Assembly: GCA_018725425.1 (NCBI GenBank)
Contig: QLUL01000028.1
Location: 1-10,053 of the forward strand
Origin: Chloroflexota bacterium
GTDB taxonomy: Bacteria > Chloroflexota > Dehalococcoidia > SZUA-161 > SpSt-899
DNA length: 10,053 nucleotides
Direction of reading: 5' to 3'
Positions 1 to 9,006 of the stretch are shown here, in pieces. Made by a program: the position numbers and the translations under genes. Numbering within the stretch: the stretch's first letter is position 1; each line of letters starts with the position of its first letter. Under the pieces are notes generated by a model. It was not told the origin of the DNA. It ran no database searches and was given only the letters and a program-made list of their open reading frames with translations.

Positions 1-145
1 GCTTGTATCCGCAGTGCTCACTCCAGAGCGAGCCGAACATCCCCAGCTCGACGATGGTAGGCTCCCGCCCCAACAGCTTTATGATGCGCTGGTACTCCCC
101 TTCGGAGAGGGCGACATTTTCCAGGTCCTGCTTGCTGATGGACAT
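1..145 (-). CDS. purL: Phosphoribosylformylglycinamidine synthase subunit PurL (N-terminus only)
   Basis: This is the first 48 codons of PurL, the ATP-dependent catalytic subunit that converts FGAR to FGAM in purine synthesis using ammonia delivered by PurQ. The visible N-terminus reads MSISKQDLENVALSEGEY and continues to an EPTIVELGMFGSLWSEHC stretch, the strongly conserved start of small-type PurL including the SEHC motif with the family's catalytic histidine. The gene runs off the left edge. An in-frame ATG at 154 overlaps the stop of the preceding nucleotidyltransferase gene as ATGA, but the GAGGGG ribosome site sits only one base before it. The ATG at 145, nine bases from that site, is the better start. 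Its partner purQ is 2.7 kb away on the same strand, separated by an accessory segment. Confidence 0.93.
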   Translation of the reverse strand, partial: MSISKQDLENVALSEGEYQRIIKLLGREPTIVELGMFGSLWSEHCGYK

Positions 146-150
146 AATAC

Positions 151-489
151 TCATCCCCTCTTTTCGAGGAGCGCAACTCCCGATTGCAGGATTTCTTCCA
201 GGAAACTGTCCTCTTCTGTTTCCGTTACTTCTTGGGGAGTCAAACCCTCAGCCTGAATGGGAGCCAAAATCCTTGCTGCTGCCATCCCGAGAAGCTCACT
301 TCGCTCCCTGATATTCATTCCTTGAAAATCTTCAGAGACAATCAGTAAATCGATATCGCTCCCCTCTGCAGCCATTCCTTTAGCAAAAGAACCATAGAGG
401 ATCATTTTCTCTGGTTTTACCCCTAAATTTTCGAGTTGTTGAGAATATCTTTTTATGATTCCTTCAATCTGGAGTCTTGCTTTAGCCAT
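151..489 (-). CDS. Minimal nucleotidyltransferase (MNT / NTP_transf_2 domain)
   Basis: A 112-residue single-domain nucleotidyltransferase of the DNA polymerase beta superfamily. The active-site signature is G33-S34, ten residues, then D45-I-D47 (GSFAKG...SDIDLL). This GSx10DxD spacing is the one found in MntA-type AMP-transferring antitoxins and other minimal nucleotidyltransferases. No HEPN partner gene is present. Instead the upstream gene, overlapping by 37 bp, encodes a winged-helix protein, and the two read as one transcription unit. The start ATG has a good GAAAGAGG ribosome site seven bases upstream, inside the regulator gene. The last ~14 residues are encoded by one copy of a 26-bp direct repeat, and the stop codon overlaps a potential purL ATG. 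Plausible roles are nucleotidylation of a toxin, the regulator or a tRNA; the substrate cannot be read from sequence. Confidence 0.88.
   Translation of the reverse strand: MAKARLQIEGIIKRYSQQLENLGVKPEKMILYGSFAKGMAAEGSDIDLLIVSEDFQGMNIRERSELLGMAAARILAPIQAEGLTPQEVTETEEDSFLEEILQSGVALLEKRG
169..194. repeat. 26-bp direct repeat, left copy
   Basis: This 26-base stretch containing ACTCCCGATTGCAGGATTT recurs at 2826-2851 with one mismatch (A175 versus G2832). On the minus strand it encodes the last part of the nucleotidyltransferase (ILQSGVALL). It lies 24 bp upstream of the purL start at 145. Confidence 0.85.
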
Positions 490-806
490 TGAACAACCTC
501 TTTCGTTCTTTTCAGATAGTCACTTGCTACCTCTTCGGGATAGCTCGAAAAGAATGAATTGATCCTTTTTATCCCTTCTCTCGCGATACTCAAGGAGTAA
601 ACCCTTTCCTTTCCTACCCTTTCCGAGCGAAGAATCCCGATGCTTTCAAGATTTCTCAGTTCCCGGCTGACTATGGCCAGGTCCGATCCCAGAATAGCCT
701 GGAGTTGACGGACATAGAACCGCTCTCCCGGGTGAGCGAAGAACCAGACGAGTATTTTGGAACGGGTTGAAGACCCAAGCAATCTCGGTAATACACCCTT
801 GCTCAT
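453..806 (-). CDS. Winged-helix (ArsR/MarR-like) transcriptional regulator paired with MNT
   Basis: A 117-residue protein with a winged helix-turn-helix over residues ~12-75: a first helix (TRSKILVWFFAHPGERF), a YVRQLQAILG helix, a recognition helix around LAIVSRELRNLESIG, and the wing (ILRSERVGKERVYSLS). The ~40-residue C-terminal tail is helical and may bind the nucleotidyltransferase or mediate dimers. It is the first gene of a pair with the MNT gene, overlapping it by 37 bp, an arrangement seen in many archaeal and bacterial genomes where wHTH and MNT domains are adjacent or fused. There is no Shine-Dalgarno before ATG 806, and a promoter lies so close that the mRNA is probably leaderless. 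Palindromic sites over that promoter suggest autoregulation. The family assignment is solid; the role in defence or toxin-antitoxin function is inferred. Confidence 0.82.
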   Translation of the reverse strand: MSKGVLPRLLGSSTRSKILVWFFAHPGERFYVRQLQAILGSDLAIVSRELRNLESIGILRSERVGKERVYSLSIAREGIKRINSFFSSYPEEVASDYLKRTKEVVQWLKQDSRLKES

Positions 807-815
807 CGTTGCTTT

Positions 816-851
816 ATTATCAACATTTGCTGACCTTTTGTCAACGTTGAT
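816..851 (-). promoter_or_regulatory. Promoter and palindromic operator of the wHTH-MNT pair
   Basis: Read on the minus strand, a perfect -35 TTGACA (839-844) is followed after 17 bp by GATAAT (816-821, five of six consensus bases). Transcription would start near 809, about three bases before the regulator's ATG at 806, so the message would be essentially leaderless; no ribosome site is visible. A perfect 10-bp palindrome TCAACGTTGA (841-850) overlaps the -35, and ATCAAC at 819-824, over the -10, is an inverted match to GTTGAT at 846-851. This is the expected layout for autorepression by the encoded winged-helix protein, though binding is inferred. Confidence 0.65.
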
Positions 852-879
852 GAAGGGCGATATATTCCTGCACCCTGAA

Positions 880-1350
880 CTATTGCTTATTTTGTAATTC
901 CTGAAGGACTTCTCGCAAAATCTTGGTCTTCGCCTTGGACAATCTTTCTTGCTTGAGCTCTTCCAGTAGCTTCAATTTCCCTGTTTCAACAAGGATGTCC
1001 AGGAAATCCCCAAAGTCCTCATTTCTAATCCCTGCCCTCAGGATTTGTCGCACCTCGTAGTCTGCTTCGGGTGTATCAAGTTCGAGGAGAAAACAGAAGA
1101 TTACCGATCGGAAGCCCGAGGCGACTGTGGGGAGAGAGATGTTTTGAGCCAGCAGGCGTATCGGGGACACCTGGAGCGGCTCTGGATGCCTTTTGGCAAT
1201 ATCCATCAACGCATCCAGGGCCGCCAGCCTCACGTCCTCCGAGCGGTCTATAAGCCCCAGGAACAGCTCAAGAAGCGTACCCAGGTTCCATTCAGCCCGA
1301 CCCAGAGAAAGCATTTCGGAGAGCCTTTCTTTTGTCCAGCCTCCTGGCAT
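880..1350 (-). CDS. HEAT-repeat-like helical protein of unknown function
   Basis: A 156-residue, largely helical protein that I do not recognise as a named family. Residues ~20-55 (LLELFLGLIDRSEDVRLAAL, then DALMDIAKRHPEPL) look like a HEAT/ARM helical pair, with weaker repeats to about residue 130 and a charged coiled tail (LLEELKQERLSKAKTKILRE). Such proteins usually serve as binding scaffolds. A strong GGAGG ribosome site lies six bases before ATG 1350. The frame is open for 22 more codons upstream (1351-1416) and reads like protein (LVKAIPEEILDELLQARR) but has no ordinary start codon, so an older, longer version may have been cut by the TAG at 1417-1419. It lies inside the segment separating purQ from purL. 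Confidence 0.6.
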   Translation of the reverse strand: MPGGWTKERLSEMLSLGRAEWNLGTLLELFLGLIDRSEDVRLAALDALMDIAKRHPEPLQVSPIRLLAQNISLPTVASGFRSVIFCFLLELDTPEADYEVRQILRAGIRNEDFGDFLDILVETGKLKLLEELKQERLSKAKTKILREVLQELQNKQ

Positions 1351-1426
1351 CTCACACCTCCTCGCCTGAAGTAACTCATCCAGAATTTCCTCAGGTATAG
1401 CCTTAACTAAGACGTCCTAGCCGATG

Positions 1427-1905
1427 CTAACCCAAGAGACGCATGATCAAATTGGCTACAATAGTGGTTATGACAGCAGTTAGGACAGCGATGATTACAG
1501 TCCGGATATTACCCTTGAAGAAATCCCACATTTTGCGATACCAAGACCGCATAAGCAAATGAGCATGGTCAATACCTACCGGAGTAGGCTTAATACCAAA
1601 ATAATCCCGATAATCCAGCTCAAAAGTCTCGCCAGGAGTAGTTACGACAAAACAGTTCGCCTCAAGAGTCAGTCAAGAGTAGTTACGAACCCTCTAGCTA
1701 CTAACTCTTTCACAGCAACACAAATCTCGTCTTTATCATCACGGCTATAATCTTCTGGTTTTGATTTGCCTGATGACAAAATGCCAGAAGAGAATGCTAA
1801 ATCGGTTCCCAATGCACCTTCTGTTCTCAGTTTAGCACCATCCTGAGCCTCCCATAACCGCACCAAGGTCTTCATCATCTGTTCAGGATATTCGCTTGGC
1901 TTCAC
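1427..1905 (-). pseudogene. Frameshifted gene for a C-terminally membrane-anchored protein
   Basis: Two reading frames together make one plausible protein. The first is 78 codons from ATG 1905, starting MKPSEYPEQMMKTLVRLWEA and ending ELVARGFVTTLD with stop TGA. The second, in another frame, runs from about 1672 to a TAG at 1427-1429, reading CFVVTTPGETFELDYRDYF, then RSWYRKMWDFFKGNIR and a single hydrophobic helix TVIIAVLTAVITTIVANLIM. Between them are short direct repeats (1662-1688). Removing 11 bp gives one continuous 155-aa frame; removing a 41-bp period gives 145 aa. The start overlaps the stop of the upstream nuclease-like gene as ATGA, so the two were co-translated. The family is not recognised. 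It is probably inactive, although the 78-aa N-terminal part could still be made. Confidence 0.55.
1636..1688. repeat. Short nested direct repeats at the frameshift point
   Basis: On the plus strand, TCAAGAGT occurs at 1662-1669 and 1673-1680 (11-bp period), and GAGTAGTTACGA occurs at 1636-1647 and 1677-1688 (41-bp period). Both periods leave a remainder of two when divided by three. Collapse of either repeat therefore rejoins the two frames of the broken gene, which points to slippage or microhomology duplication as the cause of the break. Confidence 0.7.
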
Positions 1906-2775
1906 TGTCTTTCCCCTTCCTGGTATCCCTCCACCACAGCCACTTCCTCATCGGTCAGACCATAAATCTGGTAAACCCTGACGCAATCGCTGAACTTCTT
2001 CAACTGGTCATCATAGACGATTCCCCCGGCTTCTCGCTTTGCCAACAATTGCTGGTATTCTCTGTATTCCCGCCCTCTAAGCTCAAGCTGACCTTGAATT
2101 TCTTCCGCTACCAATCTCATTGCGCCCTGCAAATCCTCCAGCAGTTGGGAAAAGATAGTAGGGTCGGAGACATCCAGCTCCGGCTCCTTATAGAGTTCTT
2201 CCTCAGACACGAAGGTGAACTCTCTGGAGAGATACCTGAGCTTCAGCAGTTGGTCAACCTCAGTTTCACTGAGTCCATCGATGCCCTTAGCCAAAAATCT
2301 GCGGTAGGCATCCTGTAAATTGACTTGCTTTATCAACTGAGCCCAGATCTTCCACCCCCTCCGGGTGGTGCCAGGCTTCCAGGCGAACCCCATCGCTGAG
2401 GATAGCAAATCTTGCTGCTAGCTCATCGGAATAACTGTGCAAGCGCCTCTGATGCTCAGTAAGGTCCTTTAGCAGGCTGCTCTGGGTTTCGATGACAATC
2501 ACCGGGTGATTTTGGGGGTCGTGGATGATGGTATCCGGCCTGCCGGTGGGGATAGTCTCCTCGGGGCCGAAGTCCTGCTGGGGATGATAGCCAAGAGCTA
2601 CAAACAGGGGCTTAACGATATTGTCGCGCATAAGAAACTCATCGTTTCTCTCGCGACTTTGAAGATAGGATAGGTAGGGTTTTCCTTTGTGTCTGAAGCC
2701 CTCAATCACGCCGAAAATCATGGCGATAAAGTCGGCGTCGAGTTTGGAGTAGTGCTTTCGGCTAGCTGTCGGCAT
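1902..2775 (-). pseudogene. Frameshifted HsdR-N-like (PD-(D/E)xK) restriction-type nuclease gene
   Basis: A gene for ~290 residues split by one extra base. The 5' frame (ATG 2775 to 2287) carries the N-terminal nuclease-like domain of type I/IIG restriction subunits: GYHPQQDFGPEETIPTGRPD (D81), a strand PVIVIETQ (E96, Q98 in place of the usual E-x-K lysine), a helix with Q109 and Y115, then FAILSDGVRLEAWHHPEG. The 3' frame continues IWAQLIKQVNLQDAYRRFLA and ends VYQIYGLTDEEVAVVEGYQ, like the tail of type IIG restriction proteins. A run of five C (2355-2359) is the likely slip site: with four, the protein reads HHPEGWKIWAQLI. No methyltransferase or helicase is present, so this was a small or already reduced protein. 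Assembly error is an alternative. Confidence 0.62.
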
Positions 2776-2825
2776 TGCTCTTCTTCCCTAGGATTAGAGT
2801 CGCCCTACAGTGGCTTCTTTGCTCA

Positions 2826-2851
2826 GAGCGCGACTCCCGATTGCAGGATTT
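2826..2851. repeat. 26-bp direct repeat, right copy
   Basis: The match to 169-194 is 25 of 26 bases in the same orientation. It sits just after purQ (stop 2865-2867) and before the nuclease-like gene. Read in the nucleotidyltransferase frame it gives QILQSGVAL then a stop, so it could be a remnant 3' end of a second nucleotidyltransferase gene, one arm of an inserted element, or a dispersed repeat. A 7-bp inverted pair GAGTCGC/GCGACTC (2797-2803, 2830-2836) adjoins it. Confidence 0.8.
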
Positions 2852-2864
2852 GTAGCCGCACTCT

Positions 2865-3572
2865 TTACGGGTGCGTTTCCTTTCCCGCATGCACCGACAG
2901 GATGGAGTCGAAAAACGCCCGGCCGTCCGTTCCGCCGAGGATCTCCTCGCAGCAGCGCTCGGGATGGGGCATCATCCCCAGCACGTTCCCCTCGGCGTTG
3001 GTTATGCCGGCGATGTTGGAGAGCGAGCCATTGGGATTAGCCGCCTCGGTAATCTCTCCTGAGGGGGTTGAGTAGCGTAGCACGACCTGGCCATTGGCCT
3101 CAAGCTCGGCAAGGGTGGCCTCATCGGCGAAATAGCATCCCTCATAGTGAGAAATGGGCATGCGCAGCACCCGCCCCGTCTGGCAAGCGGAAAGGAAGGG
3201 CGAGGAGGTGTTCTCCACACGCAGGTGAACCCACTGGCACCGATATTGCAGGTGAACGCTGCGGAGCAGCACGCCGGGCAGGAGTCCCGCCTCGCAGAGT
3301 ATTTGAAACCCGTTACAGCTACCGAGAACCAGTCCACCACCGGCAGCAAAGCGCTCCACCGCACCCATCACCGGGGAAAATCGGGCGATGGCTCCCACGC
3401 GAAGATAGTCGCCGTATGAAAAGCCACCGGGGAGGATCACGCAGTCGTAACGGGACAGGTCTGTCTCCTTGTGCCACACATATTCGACCTCCTGCCCGAA
3501 GACCTCGTCCAGCACATGGTGGAAGTCCATATCGCTCCAGGTGCCGGGGAAGACGACAACCCCAAATTTCAC
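2865..3572 (-). CDS. purQ: Phosphoribosylformylglycinamidine synthase subunit PurQ (glutaminase)
   Basis: PurQ is the class I glutamine amidotransferase that hydrolyses glutamine and passes ammonia to PurL. The 235-residue length fits the family (~220-240). The protein begins (M)[15 protein letters not shown]; the oxyanion region is [12 protein letters not shown]; the nucleophile elbow is GSCNGFQ (Cys86); the His/Glu pair is in MMPHPER (about His203, Glu205). The GTG start at 3572 is chosen because homology begins there and an AGGAG site lies ten bases upstream. The longer frame from 3620 adds 16 residues unlike the family. It follows the membrane protein gene with a 91-bp gap on the same strand. 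The third subunit, PurS, is not found nearby. Confidence 0.95.
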
Positions 3573-3663
3573 GCTCAAATCACTCCTGCGAGTAGGAGAG
3601 TATTTGCGAGGATGCATCACAGATTACACTATTGGTGCAAAAACAGATTGCCATCGGCAAGGA

Positions 3664-4684: not shown

Positions 4685-5301
4685 GCAACTGGTAGAGACT
4701 GCTGCACCCTTTTCCAGACCAACTCACCTATCTTCTTCCTGGGCTGAGCGGCATCAATCAGTAACCAATGCTCGGGATCGGCATTGGCCATCTCCAGGTA
4801 GCCCTGCCGCACCCGACGGTGAAAAGTGATCTCCTCCCGCTCGAAGCGGTCGCTCGTGGACGCCCTGCCTTTGCGACGCAGTCCCTCTTCTGCCTCCAGA
4901 TCCAGCAGGACAATGAGATCAGGGTGAAGTCCTCCGGTAGCGATCTCGTTGATCGTTTCGATGGTTTGGAGCTCCAATCCTCGCCCATAACCCTGGTATG
5001 CCCGTGTAGACGCGGTGTAGCGATCGCTGATAACGATGTAATTCTGATCCAGAGCAGGACGAATGACCTCTGCTACCAACTGGGCGCGGCAGACGGCGAA
5101 CAGGAGCAGCTCGGTTAGCGGATGAATCTCTGTTTCTCTATGCTTCAGAAGCCTCCCGATTTTATCTCCGATGACGGTGCTCCCCGGTTCTTTCACCAGG
5201 AGCACCGGGACCCCTGAGGCGGAAAGACGTCGCCTCAGCGCCCTCGCCTGAGTGCTCTTGCCGCTTCCTTCCACACCCTCGAATAGTATAAATAATCCCA
5301 C
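4669..5301 (-). CDS. tmk: Thymidylate kinase (dTMP kinase)
   Basis: Tmk phosphorylates dTMP to dTDP with ATP in the cytoplasm. Starting at GTG 5301 the protein is 210 residues, the normal size. It shows the P-loop GVEGSGKST (residues 9-17), the DR(Y/H) motif in VISDRYTASTRAYQGYG, a DLIVLLDLEAEEGLRR strand-helix, and a lid-type GRASTSDRFE. The open frame extends to ATG 5382, but the extra 27 residues are unlike the family and would cover the promoters. The promoter -10 lies nine bases before GTG 5301 and no ribosome site is visible, so a leaderless mRNA is likely. The C-terminus (LPVARGQC) runs into a REP-like palindrome and may be a recent extension. It is divergent from glmM. Confidence 0.94.
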   Translation of the reverse strand: MGLFILFEGVEGSGKSTQARALRRRLSASGVPVLLVKEPGSTVIGDKIGRLLKHRETEIHPLTELLLFAVCRAQLVAEVIRPALDQNYIVISDRYTASTRAYQGYGRGLELQTIETINEIATGGLHPDLIVLLDLEAEEGLRRKGRASTSDRFEREEITFHRRVRQGYLEMANADPEHWLLIDAAQPRKKIGELVWKRVQQSLPVARGQC

Positions 5302-6785: not shown

Positions 6786-7388
6786 ATGATGCGCTCTATT
6801 CTTCTGCACTGCTGCTGCGGACCCTGCACGACTTATGTAGTTAAATGGCTGCGGGACCACGACCATGAAGTCACCGGCTTCTGGTATAATCCTAATGTCC
6901 ATCCCTTTACAGAGCATCAAAAACGCCTGGAATCGATGGAAGCACTGGCAAAACAGATGAGCCTTCCACTGATCATTGCTGATGGCTACGAGATGGTGGA
7001 TTACTTCCGGGCCGTTGTCGGTCGCGAGGGAGACCGCTGTCCCGAGTGCTATCGCCTGCGGATGGACAGGACAGCCCGGGCTGCCAGGAAGAAGGGCTTC
7101 GACACCTTTTCTACCACCCTTCTCATCAGCCCCTATCAGAATCAGGAACTGATAAGGGAGATCGGCGAGCGGGCCGGGAGGGAGAATGGGGTAGAGTTCT
7201 ACTATCGGGATTTCCGCGATGGCTTTCGTGAGAGTCAGCGGGTATCTGGAGAACTCAGTCTCTACCACCAGAGATATTGTGGCTGTCTTTACAGCGAAGT
7301 GGATAGGCTGAAGGAAGATAGGCTGAAGGAAACTATTAGCCTTCAGGCAGGCACTGGCGAGGGACAAGCCCCCGCGCTACGCTGCTAA
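6786..7388 (+). CDS. queH: Epoxyqueuosine reductase QueH
   Basis: QueH (formerly DUF208) carries out the last step of queuosine synthesis, reducing epoxyqueuosine to queuosine in the wobble position of tRNAs; it is unrelated to cobalamin-dependent QueG. The protein has the hallmark cysteine sets: LHCCCGPC (9-11, 14), CPECY (85, 88) and YCGCLYSE (165, 167), which in the family supply the iron-sulfur cluster and a redox pair. Domain length is ~175 residues. Beyond that lies an odd tail: a 15-bp tandem duplication (DRLKE twice) and ~14 residues encoded by a palindromic repeat (GTGEGQAPALRC). Two ATGs are possible; the GGGAAGG site is only two bases from 6786 and five from 6789, so 6789 may be used. 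Other queuosine genes are not in the window. Confidence 0.94.
   Translation: MMRSILLHCCCGPCTTYVVKWLRDHDHEVTGFWYNPNVHPFTEHQKRLESMEALAKQMSLPLIIADGYEMVDYFRAVVGREGDRCPECYRLRMDRTARAARKKGFDTFSTTLLISPYQNQELIREIGERAGRENGVEFYYRDFRDGFRESQRVSGELSLYHQRYCGCLYSEVDRLKEDRLKETISLQAGTGEGQAPALRC
7302..7331. repeat. 15-bp tandem duplication within queH
   Basis: GATAGGCTGAAGGAA occurs twice back to back (7302-7316, 7317-7331), adding five codons (DRLKE) in frame after the conserved YCGCLYSE motif. Confidence 0.9.
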
Positions 7389-7444
7389 ACGTAGCACCGA
7401 GGTTTATCCTCGGCAACGACCGGCGGGGGACAAGCCCCCGCGCT
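7357..7444. repeat. Cluster of four hairpins with a duplicated 18-bp repeat
   Basis: The 18-bp GGGACAAGCCCCCGCGCT is present at 7361-7378 and again at 7427-7444. Around each, a stem forms: GCGAGGG/CCCCCGC (7357-7375, one mismatch) and a perfect GCGGGGG/CCCCCGC (7423-7441), both with ACAAG loops. Between them lie GCTACG/CGTAGC (7376-7381 and 7390-7395, loop 8) and CCGAGG/CCTCGG (7397-7402 and 7408-7413, loop 5). The first hairpins overlap the 3' end of queH. It resembles a REP/BIME-type mosaic. None has a T-run, so rho-independent termination is doubtful. Confidence 0.8.
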
Positions 7445-7469
7445 GCGATGAATGAAGGAGGACGAGTCA

Positions 7470-8416: not shown

Positions 8417-8611
8417 ATGACTAAGAATTTCGAGGCGTACCTCAGGCTCGATAAAACTGGCTTAGAGAATAAATATGTGGTTATTGTACATGGGGAAATA
8501 GTTGCCAGCGGTGAAGACATCGAGAATATGCTCGGGAGAGTGAGACGAGAATATCCACATGAAATACCCTTTGTGGCAAAGATTCCTGATGAGAGGATGT
8601 TGATTCTATGA
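8417..8611 (+). CDS. DUF5678 domain protein
   Basis: A 64-residue protein whose whole length fits the small DUF5678 fold: aromatic start (NFEAYLRLDKTGLENKY), strands VVIVHGEIVASGEDIENML, a basic helix (GRVRREYPHEI) and the typical end PFVAKIPDERMLIL. The function is unknown. A strong AAGGAGG lies seven bases before ATG 8417. Its TGA overlaps the ATG of the next gene (ATGA), so it is translationally coupled to the retropepsin-like protease. As far as I recall, this two-gene order recurs in other genomes, suggesting the products act together, perhaps as substrate or regulator and protease. Confidence 0.78.
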   Translation: MTKNFEAYLRLDKTGLENKYVVIVHGEIVASGEDIENMLGRVRREYPHEIPFVAKIPDERMLIL

Positions 8612-9006
8612 TCCGTCATCGATTTAGGGAGGAGAGAAGCAGTTTAGGCAAGGTTCTCCGCCCAGTTGCCGAAGTGGTTTTGGAGAAAGATGCGCTTAGT
8701 GTAGGAATGCCCATGTACATAGACTCTGGCGCCGATATTTCTATGATTCCTCTACGTTTCGGGAGGGCTCTTGGTTTTAAGCAAGATGAGGGAGATACTA
8801 TCCAGGAGATTAGGGGTATCTCGGGGGCGAGTATTCCCTATATCCTCAAGGAGGGTACTTTGGTGTTGAATGGCGAACGCTTGAAAATAAGAATAGCATG
8901 GGCGCTGGTGGAAGAGGTGCCAATGTTGATGGGAAGGATGGACATATTTGATAAATTTCGTATAATTTTTGAGCAGAGGAGCGGATGGATTGATTTTGAG
9001 AAGTAG
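8608..9006 (+). CDS. Retropepsin-like aspartic protease
   Basis: A 132-residue single-domain protein with the retroviral-type aspartic protease signature YIDSGADISMIPLRFGRALG (catalytic Asp39 in D-S-G-A-D), a flap-like stretch (EIRGISGASIPYILKEG) and a late MLMGRMDIFDKFRIIFEQ segment similar to the second core motif of such proteins. One active-site triad per chain implies an active dimer, as in retropepsins. There is no signal peptide or membrane segment, so it is cytoplasmic. It starts inside the stop of the DUF5678 gene. No linked transposon, phage or polyprotein gene is present, so this is a cellular protease of unknown target rather than a retroelement piece. Confidence 0.8.
   Translation: MIRHRFREERSSLGKVLRPVAEVVLEKDALSVGMPMYIDSGADISMIPLRFGRALGFKQDEGDTIQEIRGISGASIPYILKEGTLVLNGERLKIRIAWALVEEVPMLMGRMDIFDKFRIIFEQRSGWIDFEK

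Follow-up and report, generated by a model that had tools for sequence, protein, structure and literature searches.

Toxin–antitoxin (TA) systems in which a HEPN toxin is paired with an MNT nucleotidyltransferase are classed as type VII (PMC11586414), and orphan antitoxins are already known from marine metagenome-assembled genomes (PMC12654330), as are HEPN proteins fused to winged helix-turn-helix (wHTH) domains (PMC3710099). Chromosomes can also contain spots in which TA genes are inserted, such as the folA-apaH region for ccd, where repetitive extragenic palindromic (REP) sequences occur too (PMC7167474), and in Microcystis a ParDE-like TA is flanked by two identical direct repeats (PMC7935541). 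This work concerns a locus of this kind in a Chloroflexota bacterium, namely the interval between the purine genes purQ and purL in a stretch of 10,053 nucleotides (contig QLUL01000028.1, assembly GCA_018725425.1; hereafter the window), which contains a gene of the MNT type.

An earlier note on this DNA had described purQ and purL as lying about 2.7 kb from each other on one strand, with accessory genes between them, and all of this stands (purQ at 2865-3620, purL start at 154). The note had further taken the interval for an island bracketed by a 26-bp direct repeat. Based on a comparison with related genomes, we consider it probable that the interval is instead a decayed TA/defence-like cluster, in which the repeat is the 3' end of the MNT gene, present once as part of the complete gene beside purL (copy 1) and once, next to purQ, as a relic truncated at its 5' end (copy 2).

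The 26-bp repeat and the MNT gene beside purL

The repeat is real, and it is neither a chance match nor a dispersed element. Its copies, at 169-194 and 2826-2851, agree at 25 of 26 positions and lie 2657 bp apart (start to start), just as first described, and the likeness extends to 31/36 over 159-194 and 2816-2851; the longest exact direct repeat of the window measures 19 bp, and none of 200 dinucleotide shuffles exceeded 17 bp. In the host genome (1.52 Mb in 342 contigs, 81% complete) the 19-base core is found with at most two mismatches at two places, both of them the window copies, and at one more with three mismatches. Among 393 genomes of the class (one per species, some incomplete, with no second genome of this species), a 20-base core with at most two mismatches is present in three, namely the host, with two copies, and two genomes with a single isolated two-mismatch match, while a reversed control pattern gave one match; the repeat as a pair was not found in the other 392. 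With so few matches, a mobile, dispersed 26-mer was rejected.

Copy 1 does lie just before purL, as had been noted, but it is coding and not intergenic DNA, being part of ORF (open reading frame) 151-489. The product is an NTP_transf_2/Polbeta protein according to Pfam, with an intact catalytic motif, GSX10DXD, and by its sequence it is the MNT-type antitoxin of a HEPN-MNT pair; in PADLOC, MNT proteins (eight proteins scanned) gave matches to PDC-M05A and PDC-S09. Copy 1 encodes ILQSGVAL and continues with LEKRG and the stop codon of the gene. In the same frame copy 2 also encodes ILQSGVAL, followed immediately by a stop codon, and the lone mismatch seen between the copies (GTT versus GTC) is synonymous, with valine in both.

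The comparison with G004, a genome of the same genus, bears on which copy is the older. There, a homologous MNT end lies at the matching place beside purL, together with a HEPN partner, and no second copy of it exists near purQ in the 20 kb compared. Over the 26 bp, copies 1 and 2 differ at one position, copy 1 and G004 at three, and copy 2 and G004 at four, which suits a duplication younger than the split from that genome. Taken together, these results identify copy 1 as the gene's own sequence, whereas copy 2 is probably a partial duplicate of later date and a relic of the MNT 3' end beside purQ. Additionally, about 384 bp that separate MNT and purL in G004, including a HicB-like frame below the Pfam cut-off, are absent from the window, where the MNT stop codon overlaps the purL ATG (ATGA) and an AGAGGGG in the last MNT codons would serve as a Shine-Dalgarno-like site of purL. 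Catalytically intact as judged by its motif, the MNT gene may be maintained as a passenger of the purL transcript.

The earlier note had proposed a discrete, non-autonomous element of 2.66 kb, inserted by, and excisable between, the 26-bp repeats. Such an element would account for repeats that flank accessory genes of lower G+C (0.487, versus 0.556 for the contig after purQ) and for six ORFs that all share one strand, and integrases are encoded elsewhere in the genome (six PF00589 matches). However, a sequence that is MNT coding DNA, present at the same place in G004 where the second copy is lacking, lends no support to a bracketed insert, and excision would destroy the gene adjoining purL, whose end supplies the overlap with that gene. 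No integrase or transposase family was matched by any of the six ORFs in Pfam or NCBIfam (their absence had already been remarked), the 26-mer forms no notable hairpin (z -0.34), and the pair was not found in the other class genomes. Terminal inverted repeats, as expected of a MITE or an insertion sequence, were not seen at the interval ends among the 25 inverted pairs listed (of 27). Rfam gave no matches on the window at gathering score. The gap predicted to remain after excision, 62 bp, becomes 53 bp with the purL start at 154, the original figure fitting a start three codons later. The empty site with a single repeat copy that was to be looked for in relatives was not seen in the 393 class genomes, which are one per species, some incomplete, and include no other genome of this species. 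A repeat-bracketed mobile island is not supported, and we regard this element as quite unlikely; homologous recombination, which the note had offered as a route, is reasonable.

The chimeric ORF and the other genes of the interval

The MNT gene is preceded by ORF 453-806, which is chimeric, with a wHTH part followed in frame by the tail of a HEPN protein, and no more of a HEPN toxin gene than this C-terminal tail was encountered beside the MNT gene of the window. Both halves have counterparts elsewhere. Over 59% of the query, the wHTH part shows 87-90% identity to the N-terminus of P0002 and P0003, which are single proteins of the wHTH-MNT type, and the PADLOC matches of this ORF are PDC-M05A, Csa3, CasR and SoFic. 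The DNA homology between the window and G004 spans 154-550 and ends at 550, and the G004 gene at the place of the chimera encodes a complete HEPN protein (PF05168, E 1.7e-21), from which it follows that a DNA-binding-type domain has taken the place of the toxin, in frame, and that the tail overlapping the MNT start was kept. The protein cluster of the chimera is represented on four contigs, the longest of which (16,272 bp) exceeds the contig of the window, so that the chimera is not a quirk of one contig.

This cluster also bears on whether the locus could be an assembly artefact of a fragmented metagenome-assembled genome, an explanation suggested by the number of contigs, the degree of completeness and a contig that begins inside purL. 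The four contigs (which cover the chimera, not copy 2) speak against it, as does the fact that the two repeat copies differ by one base in 26 and diverge outside, and we hold such an artefact to be very improbable.

Among the best 80 of 227 MNT relatives, all from named genomes, HEPN lies directly upstream in 51, only downstream in 10 and in neither position in 19; none of the 80 has a wHTH match upstream, or purQ or purL in its locus. The HEPN gene is reduced in several of these relatives, which indicates that the toxin was lost, with its tail and the antitoxin kept, more than once. Of the seven odd-looking loci that were read, five (L094, L095, L102, L110 and L112) retain just the C-terminal part of HEPN, followed by an intact MNT; L104 resembles them but has a stretch of N upstream, and in L105 there is a frameshift.

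The gene content of the interval is given in Table 1. All six interval ORFs share the minus strand with purQ and purL. Judging from the frames, 1431-1905 would be one gene broken by a frame change, and 1902-2408 is probably the C-terminal part of the same, frameshifted gene as the HSDR_N ORF. The latter has two relatives, P0006 (124 aa) and P0007 (93 aa), and a single weak MTase_I match in PADLOC. Read from its sequence, the interval appears decayed and would hardly be able to act as a TA or restriction system now. At its purQ end, a piece of a dispersed REP-like repeat adjoins copy 2. The 24-base core of this repeat is found at six places in the host genome with at most one mismatch; a complete copy (in locus L088) folds into two hairpins (z -3.3), whereas the window fragment folds no better than shuffles (z 0.33).

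Table 1. Features of the purQ-purL interval and its borders (positions in the window)
Feature	Positions	Strand	Evidence or remark
purL 5' end (FGAR-AT linker domain)	2-154	-	PF18072, E 2.6e-15; start at 154, cut by contig start
MNT nucleotidyltransferase	151-489	-	PF01909/PF18765; MntA-like below cut-off (NCBIfam); motif; 85% identical to G004 MNT
Repeat copy 1	169-194	.	MNT 3'-end coding DNA; ILQSGVAL on minus strand
HEPN tail, last ~32 codons	456-550	-	Homologous to G004; HEPN tail of P0005 73% over 38% of query
wHTH part of ORF 453-806	551-806	-	P0002/P0003; HTH_metalloreg below cut-off (NCBIfam); PDC-M05A
156-aa ORF	880-1350	-	No family match (Pfam, NCBIfam, PADLOC)
Apparent single gene, frame change near 1670	1431-1905	-	ORF 1669-1905, then second-frame stretch ending in hydrophobic segment
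168-aa ORF, second frame overlapping HSDR_N ORF	1902-2408	-	Reading frames
HSDR_N_2 ORF (like N-terminus of type I restriction R subunit), adjoins purQ	2287-2775	-	PF13588, E 2.6e-6
Repeat copy 2	2826-2851	.	Probable MNT 3'-end relic (36 bp, 2816-2851, 31/36); same frame, ILQSGVAL then TGA
Dispersed REP-like two-hairpin repeat fragment	2852-2883	.	Abuts copy 2; supplies last purQ codons
purQ	2865-3620	-	PF13507, E 1.7e-42

Elsewhere in the window, a DUF5678 ORF and an aspartyl-protease-like ORF (below the Pfam cut-off) follow one another with overlapping ends at 8417-9006, and a 39-nt direct repeat (82%; 7346-7384 and 7412-7450) surrounds the end of ORF 6786-7388.

purQ-purL spacing and duplicated gene ends in relatives

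The note had set out from the premise that purQ and purL are normally adjacent, which is not supported in this class. With an E value of 1e-20, purQ was found in 213 and purL in 208 of 245 class genomes; the spacing counts use the genomes among the matches listed (147 with purQ, 150 with purL, 122 with both). In these 122 the two genes share contig and strand in 90 cases, are on opposite strands in three (G004 included) and on different contigs in 29. The 90 same-strand pairs (the window excluded) comprise 38 separated by less than 300 bp, four by 300-600 bp, 47 by 600-3500 bp and one by 8460 bp, so a gap of 2.7 kb is ordinary in the class. Within the family, purQ and purL of G004 are convergent, with 3.7 kb between them, and those of G005 and G007 are on different contigs (the ORF after purQ in G007 being read as folD).

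We examined 45 gap loci (42 of the 48 gaps of 597-3500 bp and three shorter ones), the contents of which include, in our reading, repeated membrane proteins and transporter-like ORFs. A TA scan of nine of the 81 gap ORFs, plus three further ORFs of G009, gave matches above the Pfam cut-off in five class genomes: HicB in G009, ParE in G089, and HicB with HicA in G096, G128 and G152; a further candidate, in G117, has no Pfam match.

In six of the 45 loci (with up to four repeats listed per locus), the 3' end of purQ is duplicated inside the gap: G128 (65 bp, 82%), G096 (51 bp, 98%), G019 (61 bp, 85%), G009 (47 bp, 91%), G197 (55 bp, 87%) and G216 (110 bp, 90%). The window repeat was considered as a case of the same kind and rejected, since a duplicated purQ end, as in these six loci, was not found in the window. 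G096 and G128 have a HicBA pair as their insert, with the purQ end repeated either at the purL start or 51 bp in front of it; the G009 insert consists of HicB, with no HicA match, and three other ORFs. The G009 gap (L038, 5602-5727) also contains 78 bp copied from the 5' end of purL (87%), directly followed by the 47-bp purQ-end copy, as if two units of purQ end, cassette and purL start stood in tandem. Among 386 genomes, the top three matches to the HicB of G128 are these same three purQ sites (G128, G009 and G096), which belong to three different families. HicB identity to G128 reaches 91% in G009 and 85% in G096, whereas purQ of G128 and of G096 is 76% identical to that of G009, and this excess of HicB over purQ identity points to horizontal transfer into the same purQ site.

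Gene ends are also duplicated at other places. In G288 (L236, 1405-1461 and 2021-2077) a 57-bp duplication of the purD start (98%) brackets a HicBA pair before purD, with an HTH/PIN pair further upstream. In L099, a 38-bp repeat occurs at 4784, 5512, 6333 and 7434, that is, at spacings of about 0.7-1.1 kb; HEPN-MNT occupies one of the stretches between the copies, and one copy forms the 3' end of an ORF. A 5'-truncated MNT stretch (165 bp, 76%; last 53 bp, 92%) lies upstream of an intact HEPN-MNT pair in L129, in a layout like that of the window.

The frequency of such arrangements was assessed for the 62 of the 80 MNT loci that have 800 bp on both sides and are therefore testable, a bracket being defined as direct repeats of at least 30 bp and at least 80% identity within 800 bp on both sides. 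Bracketing repeats were found in 15 of the 62 loci. The figure for random intervals was 6 of 455, and for other genes taken from these loci it was 10 of 180 (Fisher p 1.2e-4 against these genes; the 10 control positives come from five repeat-rich loci). In 7/62 MNT loci and 4/180 controls the repeat coincides with the 3' end of an ORF of at least 60 aa that lies upstream on the same strand (p 0.007), with one of the seven (L152) resting on an 89-aa ORF that is perhaps not a gene. For HicB, a looser test gave no clear excess (6/29 versus 20/136), and a tight test gave 5/28 versus 3/400 random intervals; the tight test was defined after the cases had been seen, and two of its five positives are the purQ cases that prompted it. 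The bracket figures are exploratory for both MNT and HicB. Integron attC sites near MNT were considered as well and rejected: the repeats looked like terminators, palindromes or gene-end copies, and the six MNT loci scanned gave three seven-base matches to the core-site patterns. At the window repeat an attC-like folded site was not encountered, its hairpin being weak; with the core-site consensus this repeat was compared by eye. We did not recognise the duplicated-gene-end signature in the literature covered, which leaves out subscription papers, and we make no claim that it is absent from print.

With these relatives at hand, a history of the window can be proposed, in which we infer both the order of events and a recombination step. 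The purQ-purL region is a spot that takes up TA/defence-like genes in several relatives. Once the host and G004 had separated, recombination between TA cassettes or MNT copies would most likely have deposited the MNT end a second time, and the REP-like repeat and decay would then have erased the rest of the relic. The same events would have cost MNT its toxin partner, whose first ~90 residues gave way in frame to a wHTH domain like that of the wHTH-MNT proteins, the outcome being a toxin-less MNT with its motif intact and a stop codon overlapping the purL start.

Several observations weigh against this history. The relic, at only 36 bp, does not suffice as proof of a complete second MNT gene at this place, and a short templated duplication would look alike. 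In the purQ cases the intact gene and the fragment stand in the reverse order relative to the window, which itself falls below both the length and the span thresholds of the bracket test. Additionally, no close relative with adjacent purQ and purL and one MNT gene was found. The short relic leads to a further explanation, in which copy 2 is a filler duplication of the MNT end, templated during break repair at the purQ end, and no second MNT gene ever existed. The duplicated stretch ends exactly at the REP-like fragment that altered the purQ end, as this explanation would have it, while the longer MNT relic of L129, in its similar layout, argues for the remnant of a gene; the frame of copy 2 and the synonymous mismatch are compatible with both. 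We regard the filler duplication as unlikely and retain the relic of a second MNT gene end as the probable origin of copy 2.

A wider proposal, which we put forward tentatively and with some doubt, is that small TA cassettes (HEPN-MNT, HicBA) move by end-duplicating insertion at host gene ends, with purQ-purL as a preferred spot and the window repeat as a decayed trace that had MNT as its target. In such an insertion, a cassette would land at the end of a gene and some 40-90 bp of the last or first stretch of that gene would be copied on its far side, so that the target stays intact.

Significance and comparison with known systems

The relatives provide a testable signature of TA-cassette insertion, in which the end of a host gene is duplicated on either side of a cassette, and three families share closely related HicB genes at one and the same end of purQ. 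This wider signature is a more interesting lead than the window repeat. The window, for its part, suggests a route of decay in which the toxin is lost while its tail is kept and the antitoxin remains intact.

Integrase-type genomic islands have direct repeats at both ends; repeats exist at the interval ends here too, but one of them is native gene sequence, and an integrase gene was not encountered in the interval. The ccd genes of folA-apaH resemble the window in that TA genes occur together with REP-like repeats at a plastic spot flanked by core genes, the window differing in its core genes, in the duplicated gene end and in the lost toxin (PMC7167474); the ParDE-like genes of Microcystis likewise stand next to direct repeats, which in that case are not part of the TA genes but follow a caspase-homolog gene (PMC7935541). 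An antitoxin without a toxin is common to the window and the marine genomes (PMC12654330), and the described HEPN-wHTH fusions also combine wHTH and HEPN parts in one ORF, but keep the HEPN domain of which the window has the tail only (PMC3710099).

The PADLOC candidate PDC-M05A, a single protein of the wHTH-MNT type, is matched in its two halves (5-71 and 91-184 of 201) by two window ORFs; the window nevertheless has these as two ORFs, and its MNT half comes from a HEPN-MNT pair (85% to G004) and not from the wHTH-MNT proteins found. In comparison with the type VII HEPN-MNT systems, only the last ~32 residues of the HEPN protein are left in the window, following a wHTH domain, and the MNT is an orphan, whereas the intact GSX10DXD of the MNT and the retained tail of the HEPN gene are shared with these systems, the complete pair being present in G004.

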